64,000 nt of DNA, from contig NC_008610.1 in assembly GCF_000015105.1 (NCBI RefSeq), positions 682,001 to 746,000 of the forward strand, given 5' to 3'. Below the pieces are notes generated by a model that had not been told where the DNA came from, did not search any database, and saw only the letters and a program-made list of their open reading frames with translations. How positions within the stretch are numbered: the stretch's first letter is position 1; each line of letters opens with the position of its first letter. A program made the position numbers and the translations under genes. This stretch comes from Candidatus Ruthia magnifica str. Cm (Calyptogena magnifica). Its GTDB lineage: Bacteria; Pseudomonadota; Gammaproteobacteria; PS1; Pseudothioglobaceae. Shown here in pieces: positions 53,517 to 62,306 of the stretch.

Positions 53517-54553
53517 TGAAACTGGTTATTGACGATGCTTGCTATGCTTATAGGGAAATTTTTGACCATTTTGGTGAAATTACAGCTATTTCTGGTAGCG
53601 ATATTAATGCCAACTCAGTTAAAGATGCAGATGTATTGATTATACGTTCACGCACCAAAGTTAATCAAGAATTATTGAGCGGTAGTCAGGTGAAGTTTAT
53701 CGGCTCAACAGTTGTTGGGTTGGATCATATTGATCAAAACTATTTAAAGACTAAGGGTACTCAATTTTTCTCAGCTCAAAGTTGTAACTCAATGGCAGTG
53801 GCAGAATTTGTGATAAGTACTATTGTTAATTTAGTAGATGAATTGAATTTTGATTATCAAAAAAAAACTTTAGGCATTATTGGTGTCGGCAATGTGGGCA
53901 CAAAATTAGCAGAAAAAGCCAAATTAATGGGTATTAAAACTTTGTTGAATGATCCACCACGCCAAATACGTGAAAATCTAGACAACTTTGTTGATTTAAA
54001 TACAGCATTAAGCGCTGATATTGTCACCTTCCATACACCATTAACCGTTAATGGTGAACATCCATCCTATCAACTGCTTAATGAAAATAATTTTCATCAC
54101 ATTACAAACAAAACTATTCTTTTTAATGCAGCACGTGGTGGTGTAATAAAAGAAACAATATGGAAAAAACATAAAACACTTGCTAATATTATTGACTGCT
54201 GGGAAGATGAGCCCAACATTAATCCGAGTTTACAAAATACTGCCTATTTAGCCACGCCACATATCGCTGGACACTCAGTTGATGCAAAATTTATGGGTAG
54301 CTTTATGGTATATGAAGCATTATGTACTTTCTTAGGTAAAAAACAAGATAAAAATATCAGAAATTTAATTAATCTTAGTGAGTTATCCATCGATAAGAGC
54401 AATTTAAAAGATACTTTAAATGAAATTTATGATTTTCAACAAGATGCAAACGCCATTAAGGATGTCAACAACTTTGAAGACTATCGTAGAAACTATCCCA
54501 TTCGTTATGAATGGCATCATTTTAAAAGCAAAACCGTCCTTCCCATTGCTTAA
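53516..54553 (+). CDS. pdxB: Erythronate-4-phosphate dehydrogenase
   Basis: Oxidises 4-phosphoerythronate in the DXP-dependent pyridoxal phosphate pathway; the next step is done by SerC (938-2017). It has 345 residues from ATG at 53516 (TAATG overlap with ung). 2-Hydroxyacid dehydrogenase motifs are [17 protein letters not shown] (about 121-137), [10 protein letters not shown] (Arg, about 205-214), CWEDEPNI (Asp/Glu) and [12 protein letters not shown] (His, about 248-259). The C-terminal dimerisation segment is PdxB-specific. It converges on nasA with a 4-bp tail overlap. Confidence 0.93.
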
Positions 54554-56007
54554 CCTTTAAAACAAGGTTGTTTAGAATATTTATCCAATTCAACGGTTTT
54601 GTTTTTAAACAATTCAGAGTTGGTTACATGATGCATAGAAATAACTTCATTAGAAACCTTTGTCATTTTATTAAGAGTTTTGCTTTTTCCTGTCCGTGAC
54701 ATTGAGTGCCACTGGGTTAAAAGTCTAACATTGTTAATTGAATCATTATCGGTACGGTTAGTGACTTTAATATCTACCAATTCTTCTTTAACTTTAATTC
54801 TAGGCTGCCAAGACTCATCAATATGCATTTGTTGCCAAATATCATCTGCTGATTGATAATCAAATCCATCAAGCCCTAATTCTTTAGCAAGTAAACAAAT
54901 AATCTCCCAATCAGGTTTTGAGTAACCAGCTGGCGGTAAAAAGGCATTTTGCTTTAAGTATCTGCGTTCTGAGTTTTTTATGTGCCCTATTTTTTCTGAC
55001 CAACTACATGCTGGCAAAACAATATCTGCATCGTCAGTGGTTAAGGTTCTTGTAAAATCAGACACAATTAATGTCTCAAATTGTCGATAGTTAATCATAC
55101 TATGTGCAGGATTTGTTGCCATTACCCATAAGGTTTTAATTTGATTATTGGAAAAAAATTCAGTTGCGGTTAAATCATTTGTTCGTATGCCAATTTCACG
55201 ACCACCCATGGCATTACATTGCCCTGTTAAAGACAACACGCCACAGCCAGGTTTATTGATATTTCCAGTGATAATATGTGCATTAATTAAGGCATTGACC
55301 TTATCAGTTGCATCGGTTGATTGGGTTAATCCTTGAGAGTAAACACTAAGTACTTTTTTCTCTTTAAACCAAAACTGGTGTGGCAGGTTATTAATAATGT
55401 CCATGTCTTTACCAGGTTCAACTTGAATAAATAAATCAGATTTTTTAGCTGTGGTACTTTCATAGACATCAACACAAACCACAAAAGCCTTGGATTTTTT
55501 AATATGATTAAACACAATAGGGTGACAATCCGCAGTATTACTGCCAATAATAAAAATAGTTTGTGCCTGATAAATATCATCAAATGACACAGGTACAATA
55601 TCAGCACCATAGGCTCTTTTATTGGCTTCAACAGTAGAGTACATGCACAACCTTGAATTACTTTCAATATTGTCAATGCCGTAAGCCTCTGAAAATTGTT
55701 TAGCAACATAAAAATCTTCCATTAACATTTGCCCAGACAAGTACAAAGCTATTTGATGTTTTGGTGTTGATTCAAACGCTTTGGCTATGGCTTTAATGGC
55801 CTTATTCCAACTGCCTAATGATGGATTGATTAATCTCATATTATCCGTACCTACTGTTTCTAATAAAGTCTGCCCTTTAATACAAAGCATACCTTGATTA
55901 ACAGGAGAGTCTTTATCTCCTGTTAATTTTAATACAGACCCAGTTCGGGTAATTTCAATGCCGCATCCCACACCACAGTAAGGACAAGTTGTCTTAAAAT
56001 TCATCAT
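54550..56007 (-). CDS. nasA: Assimilatory nitrate reductase-like molybdopterin enzyme, unusually short
   Basis: Mo-bis-MGD enzyme reducing nitrate to nitrite. The N-terminal [4Fe-4S] motif is CPYCGVGC...GMLCIKG (about 9-44). NSRLCMYS (about 117-124) has the Mo-ligating Cys. Later family blocks are present in order: [70 protein letters not shown] and YSKQP. Yet the total is 485 residues, against about 730 in cyanobacterial NarB and more in other NasA. The missing parts are blocks between motifs (near residues 215, 280, 425 and 445), each removed without breaking the frame. Operon position last after nirB, narK and the kinase. Activity is uncertain. Confidence 0.85.
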
Positions 56008-56016
56008 TCTTCTCTT

Positions 56017-57717
56017 TTACTTAATAGCTAACATTAACAACAAAATAAAATTTAATGCAAACGATAACACACTTAATAGTCGATATTTTGTTAACTTTAA
56101 TTTTGGTTGTTTATTCTTTTGAGGTGATAAAAATACTGAATTTGGATGTTCTAAGTCATATAAAAATTCTGACAAAGTCTCATACCTTTCCGCATAATCT
56201 AGGCAACACGCCTTGCGTATAGCGCCATCAATCCACACAGGTAAATTTGGATTGTATATCAACACTGGCTCATAAATTAATTTAGATAATTTTTTAAAAC
56301 TCAAACTCTTATCTAATTTATTTTGATAAGGCAGATGAGATGAAAACATCTCATACACAATCACACCTAAACTAAATTGATCAGAGGCTTGTGAAACACT
56401 TTCATTTAAAATTACCTCTGGCGCAGTATAACCCTGCGTACCCTGATTGCCTATGAAATTAATAGGATTAACTAATTCTGCCACACCTGCAATTCTGGCT
56501 GAACCAAAATCAATAATCTTAATTTGACCAATTTCATCAATCATGATATTTTCTGGTTTTAAATCACAATGCAACATTTCTTGACGATGAAACGCTCGAA
56601 GTCCTTGAATAATTTGCTTCACAAAACCAACTACCACTTCAATATCAGAATGTTTATTTTTATCCATCCACGCTCGTAAAGTTTGTCCCTTAACATACAC
56701 CATAGCATAAGCCAAAAAGTTAGCCTTTTTATGACTGTTATAAATTTTAACAACATTGGGGCTTTGCACTCGTTGCCCTACCCACTTTTCATACATAAAA
56801 TGTTGTAAGTATTCTGGCTCATCTTCAAAATTAATAGAAGGGGTTTTAAGGGCAACTAACTGCTCAGTACTAATATCTTTAGCTAGATACAGTTGCATTT
56901 TTGCACTTGAAATAATTAAAGATTTTATCTCAAAGCCATTAATTTTCATTCCCTTGGTTAATTCAGGTGGTACAGGTTTTTGGGTTAACTCATCAAATAC
57001 TTCATCTAAATTTTTCTTTGGCAATTGCTTAATCGTTATGATCATAGCCGAAGCATTATCTTGAGAGTCTTGCTTAATTGCTCGCTCAACAATCTTATCA
57101 ACAGACGAGGCTTTGTTCATTAATGTTTCTAGTAATGTATGTTGCAAATAATCATGCACACCATCAGTTGTCATTAAAAATTGATCACCCAATTCAAGAT
57201 TAAAAGTTTGGTAGTCAACATTAATGCTTAAATCAAAACCCATCGCTCTTGTTAAATAGGTTTTTTCCTTGTTAAGGCTTAAAATATGATCTTTAGTCAG
57301 TTGTATTAACACTCCTTTTCTATAACGATAGATTCGTGAATCTCCTACATGAAAAATATGTGCGATATTTGATTTAATAATAACCACACTAAGTGTACAT
57401 AACATGGATGAAATTTCACCAAAACGCATTGATTGGGAGTACAGCCAATTATTAAGTGCTGAGATTACTTGACCAGCTGAATGTTCAACACTCCAAGATT
57501 CAGGGGTTGAATAATAATCACTTAAGAATCCTTTAACACAACAACCGCTTGCTTCTTTAGCTCGCTCACAAGCACTCACACCATCAGCAATAGCGCCTAC
57601 AATCCCTTTGTATTCTAGCGCTTTAGGGTTGGGTACATAGTAAGCGCAGGCATCTTGATTTTCCTCCTTAACACCTGCAATGCAATGCGAATTAACAATG
57701 ACTTTTAATTGTTTCAT
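56017..57717 (-). CDS. Bifunctional PP2C-type phosphatase/serine-threonine kinase, membrane-anchored
   Basis: A 566-residue fusion. The N-terminal PP2C-like phosphatase (about 1-240) shows GVKEENQDA, GAIADGVSACERAKEA, FHVGDSRIYRY, FLMTTDGVHDYL and DNASAMII. The kinase (about 260-530) has the ATP Lys in LVALKTP, catalytic loop HCDLKPEN (Cys replaces the usual Arg of HRD), DFGSAR and GTQGYTAPEV. A membrane helix ends the protein (about 546-564). The same fusion occurs in nitrate assimilation clusters of Pseudomonas and relatives, next to nirB and the nitrate transporter, suggesting control of uptake or reduction. It starts 2 bp after the transporter gene. Targets are unknown. Confidence 0.88.
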   Translation of the reverse strand: MKQLKVIVNSHCIAGVKEENQDACAYYVPNPKALEYKGIVGAIADGVSACERAKEASGCCVKGFLSDYYSTPESWSVEHSAGQVISALNNWLYSQSMRFGEISSMLCTLSVVIIKSNIAHIFHVGDSRIYRYRKGVLIQLTKDHILSLNKEKTYLTRAMGFDLSINVDYQTFNLELGDQFLMTTDGVHDYLQHTLLETLMNKASSVDKIVERAIKQDSQDNASAMIITIKQLPKKNLDEVFDELTQKPVPPELTKGMKINGFEIKSLIISSAKMQLYLAKDISTEQLVALKTPSINFEDEPEYLQHFMYEKWVGQRVQSPNVVKIYNSHKKANFLAYAMVYVKGQTLRAWMDKNKHSDIEVVVGFVKQIIQGLRAFHRQEMLHCDLKPENIMIDEIGQIKIIDFGSARIAGVAELVNPINFIGNQGTQGYTAPEVILNESVSQASDQFSLGVIVYEMFSSHLPYQNKLDKSLSFKKLSKLIYEPVLIYNPNLPVWIDGAIRKACCLDYAERYETLSEFLYDLEHPNSVFLSPQKNKQPKLKLTKYRLLSVLSFALNFILLLMLAIK

Positions 57718-57719
57718 AA

Positions 57720-59186
57720 TTAATTTAGCTTGATTATTTCAACCGTTCCATCGTCTAAAATCTCAGTCATGTGCCCTTTTGGCTCTTCTAAAAAGATAAT
57801 AATCAGTGCTAATACTAGCGAACTAACCATGCCAATTAGCATAAAAAACTCATCATAATCTACCAAAGAATTTGCAGTTAAGAACAATACTGCGCCCACA
57901 TTACCAAATGCACCAGCCATGCCTGCAATCTGACCTGTTAGCCTTCTTTGAATCAGTGGCACCATGGCAAATACTGCACCTGAACCTGCTTTGGAAAAAA
58001 TACCACCAACAATTGTCAACACTACCACTAAATGGATAGACCAGCTTTTATCCACATTACTTAACGTTAAAAAACTTAAAGTAATACCAAAGAAAAGGAC
58101 AACTAATGTTATCTTTCGACCGTATTTATCACTCAAATAACCACCACCCGGTCTAGCAAATAAATTAATAAATGGATACACACCCGCCAACAATGCAGCT
58201 GTAATTTTTGGCAATTCAAACCAATCAACATAAAACATGGCTAGAACTGAAACCACAGCCAATTCAGTACCAAAAGTAACCAAATAAGCCCAATCTAAAA
58301 TCGCCACCTGTTTAAATTTATATTGATATTGCTTAGGTATAGAATTCTTTAAATGTTGCGCATTAACAGTCCAAGTTTTAAACACTTGAAAAACAAACAC
58401 AAATGCAAAAACAATATACACACTAAATTCCATATTTGATGAAATTATATTCATTTTTTCAGGTGATAATTTCCAAGTGAGCAGCGACAAAGAAAGATAT
58501 AAGGGTATGTTCATTAAAATATACAACACTAAATCCGAGTAGCTACTCACTTCCATTGCGCCTATTTTTTTAGGTTTAAAATAAGTTGATCCTTTGGGCG
58601 TATTAGTGACATTAAAGTAATAAAAAATACCATAACCTATTGCCAATACACTAGCAATGATAATCGCATAACGCCAACCATCAATCTCGCCAAAACTACT
58701 TGCGATAAAAGGTAACAACATGGCCGCACCTGCTGAACCAAAATTACCCCAACCACCATAAATACCTTGTGCAGCACCCGTTTGTTTTGCTGGAAACCAC
58801 TCAGAAATCATACGAATACCGACTACAAATCCAGCACCAATAAAACCTGATAAGAATCTAAGCAAAGCAAGTTGTTCATAAGACTGCATCCAACTAAATG
58901 CAATTGAAACAAGCCCACCTAAAACTAAAATAGAGGAGAACATAATTTTAGGCCCGAATTTATCAACCAGCATACCAACCACAATTCTTGCTGGAATAGT
59001 CATGGCAACATTAAGAATCAGTAGCACTTTTGCCTGTTGCTCACTCAATGATAAGGCTTGTTGTATAAATGGCATCATTGGTCCAAGGCTAAGCCATACA
59101 ACAAAGGTCATAAAAAAAGCAAACCAAGTTAAATGCAAAATGCGATATTTGCCCTTAAATGAAAATAAATTTAATTTATCTTTCAT
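57720..59186 (-). CDS. Nitrate/nitrite MFS transporter (NarK/NasA type)
   Basis: A 488-residue, 12-helix inner-membrane carrier. The nitrate-porter signature is seen in GFVVGIRMISEWFPAKQTGAAQGIYGGWGNFGSAGA (about 119-154, quoted across; the Arg, and the Gly-rich G-x-x-G-x-x-G-N-x-G pattern) and again in the second half (RLTGQIAGMAGAFGNVGAV). MFS loop motifs LVDKFGPK and LSDKYGRK are present. It lies 15 bp after nirB and is followed at 2 bp by the kinase gene. It should import nitrate for the downstream reductase. Confidence 0.92.
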   Translation of the reverse strand: MKDKLNLFSFKGKYRILHLTWFAFFMTFVVWLSLGPMMPFIQQALSLSEQQAKVLLILNVAMTIPARIVVGMLVDKFGPKIMFSSILVLGGLVSIAFSWMQSYEQLALLRFLSGFIGAGFVVGIRMISEWFPAKQTGAAQGIYGGWGNFGSAGAAMLLPFIASSFGEIDGWRYAIIIASVLAIGYGIFYYFNVTNTPKGSTYFKPKKIGAMEVSSYSDLVLYILMNIPLYLSLSLLTWKLSPEKMNIISSNMEFSVYIVFAFVFVFQVFKTWTVNAQHLKNSIPKQYQYKFKQVAILDWAYLVTFGTELAVVSVLAMFYVDWFELPKITAALLAGVYPFINLFARPGGGYLSDKYGRKITLVVLFFGITLSFLTLSNVDKSWSIHLVVVLTIVGGIFSKAGSGAVFAMVPLIQRRLTGQIAGMAGAFGNVGAVLFLTANSLVDYDEFFMLIGMVSSLVLALIIIFLEEPKGHMTEILDDGTVEIIKLN

Positions 59187-59201: not shown

Positions 59202-61577
59202 TCATGCTGAACGCCTATGGTCTATTGTTTCCCATGGATTTTTAATGGTTTTAGGTAGTAAGTCTGCGTAGTGTTTGATCATTGAAGGTGTCTTTAGTTT
59301 GGATTGAATATAGTCTAGACCCACACGTTCTTCAAAATGTATCACACGTTCAAGATAATTAGCCTCAATACGATATAACTGCACAAAAGCCTTAAGATAT
59401 TCAATCACCTCTTCTTCAGTTTCAAAAAATCTGTCTTTCAAACAAGCCTTAGTTCGAATCCCGCAAGCTCCTGCCACATGAATTTCATAACCTTTTTCAG
59501 TACAAATCACACCAAAATCTTTAATCGTAACTTCGGCACAATTACGCGGGCAACCGCTCACACCCATTTTAAATTTGTGTGGCATAAAGTGTGACCAAAC
59601 AGCATCTTCCATTTTAATAGAAAGCCCCATAGAATTTTGTGTACCCATCATACAATGATCTGTGCCAACACAAGATTTACACGTTCTAGTAGCCTTTCCA
59701 TAAGCATAACCAGCTTTCATGCCTGCCTCAGTCATTTTGTCCCATATATCATTTAAGTTCTCCTTAGGAATACCTAATAAATCAATACGCTGCCCACCAG
59801 TTACTTTAATCGTTGGAACTTCATATTTAACAGCAATATCAGCCAATGCTTTAAGTTCTTTAGGTGTTGTCAATCCACCCTGCATTTGTGGCACAATGGA
59901 ATAAGTGCCATCTCTTTGTTTATTGGCATGCATTTTTTCATTGTGCGGTCGTTCATCATCATTATGAATATACGCTTCATTAAACTGTGAAGATAAATAA
60001 TAATTAATGGCCGCACCACAAGCCTCACAAATATCGTCAAAATCAAGTGCATTTCGAACGTCATTAACACTAACAACTTTATCTAAAACTCTAATATATT
60101 GACGCACTTCTTCTGTTGAATATTTTGTACAATCACACAAGACATCTTTGCTTAATATTTCAGCACTAGCAACAAAGCTAAATACTTGTTTAGCCACTGA
60201 AGTACAGCCACCACAACCTGTTGCACAACCTGTTTCTTCTTGTAATGCCTTAAAAGTATCACAACCACCTGCCACTGCACTTACAATGTCACCTTTAGTA
60301 ACACCTATGCAACCACATACTTGTTCATCTTCAGACATCTTTTCAACACCTTTGGCACCTGTGCTTGAATCGTCAATATTAATATCACCAAATAGTAAAG
60401 TTTTGCGAATACTGGCAATGTCTGTTTCTTTTTTAATTAAGTCAAAATAAAACAACCCATCTGTTGAATCACCAAATAAAACTGCACCAACCAATTTGTT
60501 ATCTCTAATAGACAATCTTTTACGAGTGTTAAGTGCATGATCCTTGGAACACATAACCTCATCTTCAAGATTATCAAACTCTCCTGCTGAGAAGACATCC
60601 ACACCTGAAATTTTTAGCTTGGTAGAAATATCTGAACCTGTGTACATATGATGAGACACCTCACATATCTGCTCAGCACACACACGTGCCTGTTCAAACA
60701 GTGGTGCTACCAAACCATACGACATACCTCGGTGCTTAATACACTCACCCACTGAGTAAATAGCAGGGTCAGAAGTCATCATTGTGTCACCCACAATAAT
60801 ACCTCTGTCTGTCTGTAACCCTGCAGCTTTTGCTAAAGAATCTTCAGGAATAATGCCTACCGACATAACAACCATATCAACATCCATTGTCGTTCCATCC
60901 TCAAATTCCAGGGCTTTAACTGTATTTGTTCCAATAATTTTATTGGTTATCGTACCTAACTTGAATTTAATATTTTTCTGTTCTAATACTTTTTGCAATA
61001 AGACACCAGATGAAGTATCTAATTGCATATTCATAATAGAATCCATGTTGCCAATCACAGTAACATCAAACTCTAACTCATTAAGTCCATTAGCAGCCTC
61101 AAGCCCTAATAAACCCGTACCAATTATTGCTACTTTTTTAGCTTGACCAGATTTTGATTGCATATACTCAACATCATAAATATCTCTAAACGACACCACG
61201 CCCTCTAACGTTTTACCTGGCAATGGTAAAATAAAAGGCCTTGACCCCGTGCAAATCACTAATCGATCGTATACCACTGAATATGATATCTTCCCATTGG
61301 TTAATAAAATACTTTTATTAAATCTATCAATAAACGACACCAAGCAACCTGGCTTAAAGGTAATGTTATTTTGAGAGAAATAAGACTCATCATGCGTCTT
61401 TATATCTTCAAAATCTTTCTCTCCTGCTAAAACAGATGAGAGCATAATTCTGTTATATGGTAACACCTTCTCCTCACCAATAATAGTGATTTGATACATC
61501 AGTGGGTCAATTTTTAACACCTCATCAACCACCTTCATGGCACTCATTCCAGATCCAACTATGACTAAATTTTTCAT
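59202..61577 (-). CDS. nirB: Assimilatory nitrite reductase large subunit NirB
   Basis: Reduces nitrite to ammonium with NAD(P)H in the cytosol. It has 791 residues. The FAD domain begins VIVGSGMSAMKVVDE and the NADH motif is IIGTGLLGLEAANGL (about 150-164). A BFD-like [2Fe-2S] domain has CGCIGVTKGDI with CATGCGGC (about 413-460). The sirohaem/[4Fe-4S] half carries CVGTDHC (about 647-653) and SGCPRNCAE (about 687-695), so all cluster Cys are present. It is first in the operon, preceded by a leader of about 220 nt with two hairpins. The usual partner gene nirD is missing next to it. Confidence 0.94.
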   Translation of the reverse strand: MKNLVIVGSGMSAMKVVDEVLKIDPLMYQITIIGEEKVLPYNRIMLSSVLAGEKDFEDIKTHDESYFSQNNITFKPGCLVSFIDRFNKSILLTNGKISYSVVYDRLVICTGSRPFILPLPGKTLEGVVSFRDIYDVEYMQSKSGQAKKVAIIGTGLLGLEAANGLNELEFDVTVIGNMDSIMNMQLDTSSGVLLQKVLEQKNIKFKLGTITNKIIGTNTVKALEFEDGTTMDVDMVVMSVGIIPEDSLAKAAGLQTDRGIIVGDTMMTSDPAIYSVGECIKHRGMSYGLVAPLFEQARVCAEQICEVSHHMYTGSDISTKLKISGVDVFSAGEFDNLEDEVMCSKDHALNTRKRLSIRDNKLVGAVLFGDSTDGLFYFDLIKKETDIASIRKTLLFGDINIDDSSTGAKGVEKMSEDEQVCGCIGVTKGDIVSAVAGGCDTFKALQEETGCATGCGGCTSVAKQVFSFVASAEILSKDVLCDCTKYSTEEVRQYIRVLDKVVSVNDVRNALDFDDICEACGAAINYYLSSQFNEAYIHNDDERPHNEKMHANKQRDGTYSIVPQMQGGLTTPKELKALADIAVKYEVPTIKVTGGQRIDLLGIPKENLNDIWDKMTEAGMKAGYAYGKATRTCKSCVGTDHCMMGTQNSMGLSIKMEDAVWSHFMPHKFKMGVSGCPRNCAEVTIKDFGVICTEKGYEIHVAGACGIRTKACLKDRFFETEEEVIEYLKAFVQLYRIEANYLERVIHFEERVGLDYIQSKLKTPSMIKHYADLLPKTIKNPWETIDHRRSA

Positions 61578-61625
61578 GCTATTTTCCTGCCTTGTTTTAA
61601 TGTTTTATACTTTTTATAAAGCAAA

Positions 61626-61677
61626 AAGCCAGTTATCGCATTTATATACATAAACATAAAAATACAATAACTGGCTT
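61626..61677 (-). terminator. Second leader hairpin before nirB, terminator-like
   Basis: On the minus strand an 11-bp perfect inverted repeat (AAGCCAGTTAT / ATAACTGGCTT, arms 61667-61677 and 61626-61636) closes a 30-nt loop and is followed by TTTGC and TTTATA. With the terminal A-T pairs counted as tail, the U-run is five. It lies about 50 bp before the nirB start and inside the predicted leader, so it may act as an attenuator rather than an end-of-gene terminator. Confidence 0.55.
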
Positions 61678-61720
61678 CAATACCTATTTGCCAACTCTAC
61701 TTTGAAATTGACGAAAAAAA

Positions 61721-61762
61721 ACGTTTACTTAATAATCTCATTAAGAAAAATTAAGTAAACGT
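61721..61762 (-). terminator. First leader hairpin before nirB, terminator-like
   Basis: A 13-bp perfect inverted repeat (ACGTTTACTTAAT / ATTAAGTAAACGT, arms 61750-61762 and 61721-61733) with a 16-nt loop is followed on the minus strand by seven T. On the plus strand no T-run follows, so its direction is that of nirB. The loop contains another CTTAAT that can pair with ATTAAG in an alternative shorter hairpin, allowing mutually exclusive folds. No minus-strand gene ends upstream, which argues for an attenuator in the nirB leader. Confidence 0.65.
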
Positions 61763-61801
61763 CTGTGTTTGTTGTTGCCCTTCATTAGGTAACTGTGTTA
61801 A

Positions 61802-61810
61802 ATTATATCA
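61802..61810 (-). promoter_or_regulatory. Extended -10 promoter for the nirB operon
   Basis: TGATATAAT on the minus strand is a consensus extended -10 element (TGnTATAAT). No good -35 is needed for such promoters and none is seen at 17 bp. Transcription would start near 61795, leaving about 218 nt before the nirB ATG that contain both hairpins. No NtrC/sigma-54 (GG-N10-GC) element was found. Confidence 0.5.
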
Positions 61811-61856: not shown

Positions 61857-62306
61857 ATAGACAAAATAATTATACAGCAACAAGATTTTGACTTATCAAC
61901 AGAGATAGTACTGATCAAAAATAACCATTCTGATATTGGCGCAGTGGTCAGTTTTGTTGGCTTTGTACGTGATTTAGATGATAGCCAAATTCAAAAAATG
62001 ACGTTAGAGCATTATCCTGAGATGACTGAAAAAGCACTAAAATCTATTATTGATGAAGCCAAAAAACGTTGGTCTATTGGTAATATAACTCTTATTCATC
62101 GCGTGGGTGATTTAAATATTAATGATCAAATTGTATTGGTGATTACAAGTAGCAAACATCGTCAATCTGCTTTTGCATCTTGCGAATTTATTATGGACTA
62201 TTTAAAAACTCAAGCACCATTTTGGAAAAAAGAATACGCTCAAAATAAAAGCAAATGGGTTAAAGCAAAAAGTAGCGATAAAAACCAAAAAAATCGTTGG
62301 GAGTAG
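61857..62306 (+). CDS. moaE: Molybdopterin synthase catalytic subunit MoaE
   Basis: Transfers sulfur from MoaD to precursor Z in molybdopterin synthesis. The conserved N-terminal strand (KIIIQQQDFDLSTE) is present in frame but there is no ATG, GTG or TTG before it. An ATA at 61857, nine bases after an AAAGG site, is where the start should be and gives 149 residues. The first canonical start is a GTG at 61944, inside the conserved GAVVSFVGFVRD block, and would yield only 120 residues. Other family motifs are TLEHYPEMTEKAL, IHRVGDL, MDYLKTQAPFWKKE (active-site Lys) and KWVKAKSSD. MoaD is not in the window. Confidence 0.85.
   Translation: MDKIIIQQQDFDLSTEIVLIKNNHSDIGAVVSFVGFVRDLDDSQIQKMTLEHYPEMTEKALKSIIDEAKKRWSIGNITLIHRVGDLNINDQIVLVITSSKHRQSAFASCEFIMDYLKTQAPFWKKEYAQNKSKWVKAKSSDKNQKNRWE

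Follow-up and report, generated by a model that had tools for sequence, protein, structure and literature searches.

Attenuation by ANTAR proteins is already known, as is the control of nitrate genes by the ANTAR proteins NasR and NasT. PMC3369931 describes ANTAR leaders as two small hairpins with hexanucleotide loops that carry A1 and G4, where the second hairpin shares bases with a terminator and the two structures are mutually exclusive. The nirB operon leader in our window (the whole stretch of DNA analysed, 64,000 nucleotides of the clam symbiont Candidatus Ruthia magnifica) resembles the EutV/eut leaders of Enterococcus faecalis in its dual A1/G4 hexaloops, in the exclusivity of the second hexaloop hairpin (P2) and the terminator, and in a receiver-ANTAR (REC-ANTAR) protein with matching RNA contacts (PMC3369931, PMC8934654). 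Unlike in EutV/eut, a single gene is preceded by two complete modules in series, the symbiont REC domain lacks the phospho-Asp, and the controlled function is nitrate assimilation instead of ethanolamine use. With the NasS-NasT/nasA leader of Azotobacter and Paracoccus and the NasR/nasF leader of Klebsiella, the locus shares a nitrate assimilation operon and an ANTAR protein at leader RNA, and NasT has the REC-ANTAR architecture of the symbiont protein (PMC3795266). However, unlike for NasS-NasT, no NasS-type protein was found here with PF13379 or PF09084; unlike NasR, the symbiont ANTAR protein has no NIT domain; and unlike both, the modules are in tandem and the ANTAR gene lies with glnK, plus amtB in relatives. 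The sensor features of NasS-NasT and NasR were looked for and not found here, and we classed the locus as a tandem ANTAR-target RNA instead of assigning it to either system. Like this locus, Desulfotomaculum acetoxidans combines several ANTAR attenuators in its transcription units, with 13 attenuators in six units; section 10 of PMC3369931 does not state that two modules lie in series within one leader, but because of these numbers stacked modules may exist there. Tandem ANTAR modules in one leader were not described in the open-licence literature that we searched, and a report elsewhere is possible. The E. coli bgl operon likewise has a pair of terminators, and one antiterminator protein, BglG, relieves both, but the protein family and the RNA motif differ from ANTAR, and the terminators flank a gene and are not consecutive in one leader. 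What is new here is the double module in series, its family-wide use and a NasS-less pseudo-receiver.

The analysis shows the elements themselves, sequences that make them mutually exclusive, their conservation and covariation, and a single ANTAR protein that carries the residues for RNA contact; from these we conclude that the nirB operon leader is very probably a tandem ANTAR-dependent transcription attenuator, with protein binding and termination as predicted events. The putative promoter is an extended -10 element, TGATATAATT, read directly at 61801-61810 on the minus strand, and TATAAT is found at the corresponding position in all 31 family leaders used. The NirB ATG lies at 61577 on the same strand. 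Between the promoter and nirB, as an earlier note on this DNA had read, are two perfect inverted repeats: hairpin 1, ACGTTTACTTAAT / ATTAAGTAAACGT, with 13 bp followed by T8 at 61721-61714 (minus), and hairpin 2, AAGCCAGTTAT / ATAACTGGCTT, with 11 bp followed by T5 at 61627-61623 (minus) and a stem that can be lengthened to 22 nt at 86%. Both T-runs occur on the minus strand only. Upstream, a divergent plus-strand ORF at 61944, which by our reading of its sequence would be MoaE, is read away from the hairpins, and the interval up to them therefore contains no end of a minus-strand gene; here, too, the earlier note was right. Folding and covariation support predicted intrinsic terminators at both places on the minus strand, namely T1 (hairpin and U8 tract, 61714-61763) and T2 (hairpin and U5 tract, 61623-61677). 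Folding of the leader RNA, which had been proposed as a check, found the hairpins far more stable than shuffled sequences, with z-scores of -6.15 for hairpin 1, -9.10 for hairpin 2 and -5.71 for the whole leader, and with none of 200 shuffles equally stable in each case; the two hairpins are not due to chance. A simple terminator scan reported neither of them, since it allowed only loops of 3-8 nt. Rfam at its gathering threshold returned only three tRNAs over the window, and when the limit was relaxed to E 10 for the leader, none of the 20 matches reached the gathering score or belonged to an ANTAR family.

The first gene of the controlled operon is nirB, encoding the nitrite reductase large subunit (59202-61577; TIGR02374 above cut-off). 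It is followed on the minus strand by a NarK-type nitrate/nitrite transporter (57720-59186; TIGR00886 at 297.7 bits, just under the cut-off of 311.7), a PP2C phosphatase-Ser/Thr kinase fusion (56017-57717; PF13672 and PF00069) and a short, assimilatory nitrate reductase-like molybdopterin oxidoreductase of 485 aa (54550-56007; PF00384 and PF04879). We infer that these four genes form one transcript. For the last protein, the best NCBIfam match is Fdh-alpha at 228 bits, with NasC at 185.5 bits, both below cut-off. Its 485 residues match the 708-position NasC profile in three stretches, and the product is either internally reduced or a different enzyme.

The earlier note found that the loops did not clearly match the ANTAR two-hexaloop consensus, a point that we correct: the A1/G4 hexaloops lie outside the terminator loops, in two pairs of small hairpins, P1/P2 and P3/P4, which sit just upstream of each terminator, overlap its 5' arm and had been missed. 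The order along the leader is P1 P2 T1 P3 P4 T2, all on the minus strand. P1, GUUaCCU[AAUGAA]GGGcAAC (61774-61793, loop 61786-61781), has the core CCU[AAUGAA]GGG, and its full stem carries an A-C mismatch in this genome; P2 is AAAC[ACAGAC]GUUU (61757-61770, loop 61766-61761). P3, GUCAAUUuC[AAAGUA]GAGUUGGC (61690-61712, loop 61703-61698), consists of C[AAAGUA]G atop an 8-pair stem with a bulged U, although for this leader the fold programme favours a 7-nt loop over the hexaloop. P4 is GGU[AUUGAA]GCC (61673-61684, loop 61681-61676). The 3' arm of P2 (GUUU, 61760-61757) falls within the 5' arm of T1 (61763-61750), and the 3' arm of P4 (GCC, 61675-61673) falls within that of T2. Since P2 and P4 thus each share an arm with a terminator, the leader holds two complete modules in series. 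Its four A1/G4 hexaloop hairpins compare with 0.67 expected in dinucleotide shuffles, of which 0.44% of 5000 reached four, and over the 31 family leaders the mean is 3.68 against 0.73 expected. The linker is 5 nt between P3 and P4; between P1 and P2 it is 7 nt from the 3-bp P1 core and 3 nt from the full P1 stem. Linkers between ANTAR hexaloop hairpins span about 5-12 nt, and a 3-nt linker impaired eutP in E. faecalis, according to PMC3369931. Taken alone, P1 and P2 are no more stable than shuffles, as expected if the protein must hold both, and the 60-nt stretch with T1 folds at -18.1 kcal/mol compared to -4.5 for P1-P2.

A different switch had been proposed within hairpin 1, by alternative pairing of CTTAAT with ATTAAG. 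This pairing is present in the symbiont's own genome, but the inner helix varies among relatives (79.6% paired) and is poorly kept, so the proposal is not supported; the conserved alternative to T1 is P2.

In the mechanism that we infer, from binding and termination to the order of events, the steepness and the benefit of doubling, nascent RNA would fold T1 when no active ANTAR protein is present, and RNA polymerase would stop about 80 nt from the promoter; polymerases slipping past T1 would then meet T2. An active dimer of the single REC-ANTAR protein would bind P1/P2, hold P2 and take GUUU from the 5' arm of T1, and a second binding event at P3/P4 would hold P4 and take GCC from the 5' arm of T2. 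Because both locks must open, read-through would be roughly the product of two antitermination events, and two modules would make a tighter switch, with lower leak, and a steeper one than a single module.

It is also conceivable, though very unlikely, that the TGATATAAT promoter gives rise to a separate small RNA terminated by the hairpins, with nirB transcribed from another promoter or by read-through. The promoter-like element does lie directly upstream, a transcript terminated at T1 would be about 80 nt long, and short leader-derived RNAs would fit, though attenuation predicts these too. On the other hand, a simple scan lists no minus-strand promoter site between T2 and nirB, and both the exclusivity of hexaloop hairpins and terminators and the recurrence of the same layout before glnK fit attenuation.

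Conservation of the tandem leader was followed across the family. A NirB search gave matches in 78 of 83 genomes at E 0.001, many of them of weak similarity only, and an order-level search covered the same 83 genomes. We read 41 nirB upstream regions (L002-L031 and L062-L072); 31 have this leader type and were aligned as alignment A1, leaving out L062-L065, which have another kind of leader, and L066-L071, where nirB lies directly behind a kinase-like coding sequence. Alignment A2 and the covariance model R1 omit L013 (30 of the 31 leaders), and alignment A3 omits L014 and L021. Where named, the genomes with the tandem leader include Ca. Ruthia, Ruthturnera, Vesicomyosocius, Thiodubiliella, Thioglobus and SUP05. 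Among the 31 aligned leaders, loop positions A1/G4 are kept in 30 for P1, 29 for P2, 19 for P3 and all 31 for P4, and a listing of hexaloop hairpins with at least 3 contiguous pairs gave 28, 29, 24 and 28, respectively. An automatic annotator, which anchors on P2 and under-counts, gave 26, 29, 20 and 26 of 31 for the nirB leaders and 34, 36, 18 and 33 of 39 for the glnK leaders described below. L014 has lost the stem of P4 together with T2's 5' arm, L010-L013 are without the canonical P3 loop, and A1 has changed to G in P2 of L013 and in P1 of L004.

Both forms of the nirB leader are supported by covariation. In the terminator form, 94.6% of alignment cells are paired, with covariation of 0.320 against 0.194 in shuffled alignments, and in the antiterminator form 88.5% are paired, with covariation of 0.308 against 0.254; none of 500 shuffles reached either value, while the number of further pair types in the antiterminator form was reached by 22 of 500. 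Slid controls paired at 25-56%. The outer helix of T1 (97.7% of cells paired) and T2 (95.9%) both show compensatory changes, and pairing is 98.4% for P2, 81.4% for P3 and 96.8% for P4. RNAalifold on alignment A1 found P1, T1 and T2 independently, with double changes at 21 of 35 pairs, and did not predict P3, even though P3 competes with neither terminator. P3 is the weak element of the tandem leader. A lack of conservation in close relatives would, according to the earlier note, have spoken against attenuation; the comparison revealed a conserved layout of terminators and hexaloops, with covariation.

The weakness of P3 bears on whether both modules respond to the protein. If only module 1 were an ANTAR switch, T2 would be a plain fail-safe terminator, passed with the help of another factor or through leakiness, and the resemblance of P3/P4 to hexaloop hairpins would be incidental. 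The poor conservation of the P3 hexaloop is consistent with this, with A1/G4 in 19 of 31 leaders, pairing of 81.4% before nirB and 73.9% before glnK, and its absence from the RNAalifold consensus. However, P4 keeps A1/G4 in 31 of 31 nirB leaders and is paired in 96.8% of cells there and in 97.0% before glnK, the overlap of its 3' arm with T2 mirrors that of P2 with T1, the module-2 layout recurs before glnK, and a constant terminator ahead of a used operon would silence it. We therefore regard a single responsive module as unlikely and retain the tandem attenuator.

A second predicted site for the same protein emerged from R1, which was built on P1-P2. The nirB leader, itself part of the training set, ranks first in the genome (E 1.8e-15), followed by 307517-307558 (E 7e-4), and the other 13 matches listed have E of at least 0.28. 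The ANTAR gene lies about 2.5 kb downstream of this second site, which is, from the sequence context, taken as the glnK leader. In relatives, glnK is followed by amtB and the ANTAR gene, with a CBS-domain gene between them in some; the names glnK, amtB and CBS were assigned from sequence, and Amt was confirmed with PF00909 in the genus. The glnK leaders of relatives share the layout P1 P2 T1 P3 P4 T2. Of 39 leaders gathered, 33 were aligned (alignment A5), leaving out L088, L112, L129 and L133, which are damaged, truncated or gapped, and L134 and L135, whose end was not located by the script and which both show the hexaloops of both modules; the glnK leaders of L138-L141 fall outside the 39. 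Over the 33 leaders, the antiterminator form is 88.9% paired, with covariation of 0.287 against 0.198 shuffled, although its number of pairs with a double change was reached by 105 of 500 shuffles, and the terminator form is 94.8% paired, with covariation of 0.356 against 0.239. P3 (73.9% of cells paired, compared to 97.0% for P4) is again the weak element, and by eye its loop looks one base shorter in several leaders.

The genome (one contig, 1,160,782 bases) encodes one ANTAR protein, found by the genome search that the earlier note had suggested (E 8.2e-20; locus L001:1102-1680), and an ANTAR match is present in 68 of the 83 family genomes. Together with the hexaloops and their conservation, this gene strongly supports the idea, first raised in that note, that the nitrate operon would be attenuated through an ANTAR protein. 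The product, P0002, is a 192-aa REC-ANTAR protein with PF03861 above cut-off and PF00072 at 29.6 bits, slightly below the cut-off of 30.2, and it matches the solved chains 6wsh, 1s8n, 4akk (NasR) and 1qo0 (AmiR). We take 6wsh to be of the EutV type and 1s8n to be Rv1626. Eleven EutV residues contact RNA according to PMC8934654; P0002 is identical to 6wsh at 10 of these 11, with Asn for Arg175, in an alignment read by hand and with an inferred offset, since the chain is numbered two higher than in that paper. In all 11 family proteins aligned, the receiver has Asn in place of the phospho-acceptor Asp, and the conserved Lys is replaced by Asp in 10 of them and by Asn in one, which makes ordinary phosphorylation unlikely. 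Searches of the symbiont genome for a NasS-type protein gave no hits with PF13379 or PF09084, which we take to be the Pfam families of NasS, and controls were positive in 12 of 14 for each. PF13379 matched none of the 12 genomes of the genus and 11 of the 83 family genomes, with just 4 over cut-off, and P0002 gave no match to a NIT domain. The symbiont ANTAR protein thus seems to need neither phosphorylation nor NasS. Since it is encoded with glnK/amtB, and its predicted sites precede nitrate and ammonium genes, it probably responds to nitrogen status and not to nitrate by way of NasS.

One partner may lie next to the gene. The ORF L001:650-1105 overlaps the ANTAR gene start by 4 bp, an overlap also seen in L040 and L051, and appears by its sequence to be CBS-domain-like, which makes it a possible ANTAR partner or sensor. 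As a universal partner, a CBS-domain protein was rejected, as no such ORF was seen in L090 and L095, where the ANTAR gene follows amtB. More tentatively, we can picture an AND-like two-stage switch in which an unphosphorylatable pseudo-receiver ANTAR protein would sense nitrogen status without NasS, possibly through the GlnK/PII of the ANTAR operon or, in the genus, through the overlapping CBS-domain protein, and would unlock two terminators. Such a switch would regulate nitrate assimilation and, in relatives, glnK-amtB, as a compact DNA-free regulon surviving genome reduction in vertically inherited clam symbionts. This broader picture is possible, though less likely to be right than wrong.

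Obligate endosymbionts tend to lose regulation, and the hairpins could be a decaying relic in a reduced genome from which regulation has gone, an option that the earlier note had raised. The A-C mismatch in P1 and the bulge in P3, the T2 U-tract of only 5 and a glnK leader without the P2 closing pair in this genome would all fit decay. However, the terminator stems are perfect over 13 and 11 bp, and the 31 family leaders keep the layout, partly lost in L014, with compensatory changes. A comparison within the genus, which involves small numbers and related genomes, also argues against decay at nirB. The glnK-linked amtB (about 406 residues) is intact in 3 of 12 genus genomes (G039, G040 and G043), where the glnK leaders keep P1, P2 and P4. 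Nine genomes are without an intact linked amtB; G038 and G041 still keep the three elements, the leader of G044 was not seen, leaving 11 glnK leaders, and the other six are each without at least one element. In the symbiont's own genome (G000, L088), the P2 closing pair is lost and T1 still pairs; G034 has lost P2 and P4; G035 and G042 have lost P4, and their P2 stem has changed and still pairs; G036 has lost the whole of module 1; and G037 has lost P1, P2 and P4. Given the compensation in P2, module 1 of the glnK leader may still be in use in G035 and G042. At nirB, on the other hand, all three elements persist as hexaloop hairpins with at least 3 pairs in 10 of the 12 genus leaders, and the two exceptions, L004 and L013, have one A1 to G change each. 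Because 34 of 36 elements are kept before nirB (2 lost) compared to 23 of 33 before glnK (10 lost), the nirB switch looks selected, with the glnK leader eroding, and we consider a relic very unlikely. A second amt gene (about 444 residues), about 4.5 kb upstream in the symbiont's own genome, remains in 10 of the 12 genomes. Near 307517-308300 (L088), the amtB next to glnK is by reading a remnant, and one intact amt of this genome is at 302022-303212.

A shrinking clam-symbiont genome has thus kept, and seems still to select for, doubled nitrogen control. Since the nirB switch is kept with compensatory mutations while the glnK leader erodes where the linked amtB is gone, selection for conditional nitrate assimilation in the host may be readable from sequence. 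A natural two-stage ANTAR attenuator would allow the reasons for stacked terminators to be tested. SUP05-type bacteria matter for nitrogen cycling in oxygen-minimum zones, and the signal for ANTAR is a testable question in them.

Outside the family, R1, which is tuned to the family, matched 2 of 365 class genomes, and by eye neither match falls in a leader with a terminator. Among the upstream regions of 26 distant nirB genes (24 parsed) from a class NirB search cut at E 1e-100, those of L214 and L215 have a spaced hexaloop pair without an overlapping terminator, and the rest have no pair; tandem ANTAR leaders elsewhere are possible given the reach of these searches. Within the family, the leaders of L062-L065, whose nirB genes are 63-65% identical, show by eye hexaloop-like hairpins such as GAC[AAAGAU]GUC and, behind them, a hairpin without a U-tract in which the Shine-Dalgarno sequence AAGGA is paired with UCCUU, which suggests that ANTAR may control translation rather than termination there. 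ANTAR-like modules also precede a narK operon in L094 and L104. In genus g5 (L093, L097, L098 and L100), which has no close nirB, R1 matches with ANTAR-like modules lie before other genes, a serC-like ORF by reading in L098 and L100 and an ORF that could not be surely named in L093 and L097, suggesting a rewiring of the ANTAR regulon in genomes that lack nirB. In L099 (G057:C339), a second nirB-type module 1 stands before an aminotransferase-like ORF, with module 2 truncated, and is a rearranged or captured leader. Finally, a repeat-like TTTGCATAAATAGGGATGATTAGCAAAAT or a close variant, in either orientation, was seen by eye between T2 and nirB in L031 and upstream of the promoter in L015 and L024, and resembles a small mobile element that may have inserted beside or into the leader.
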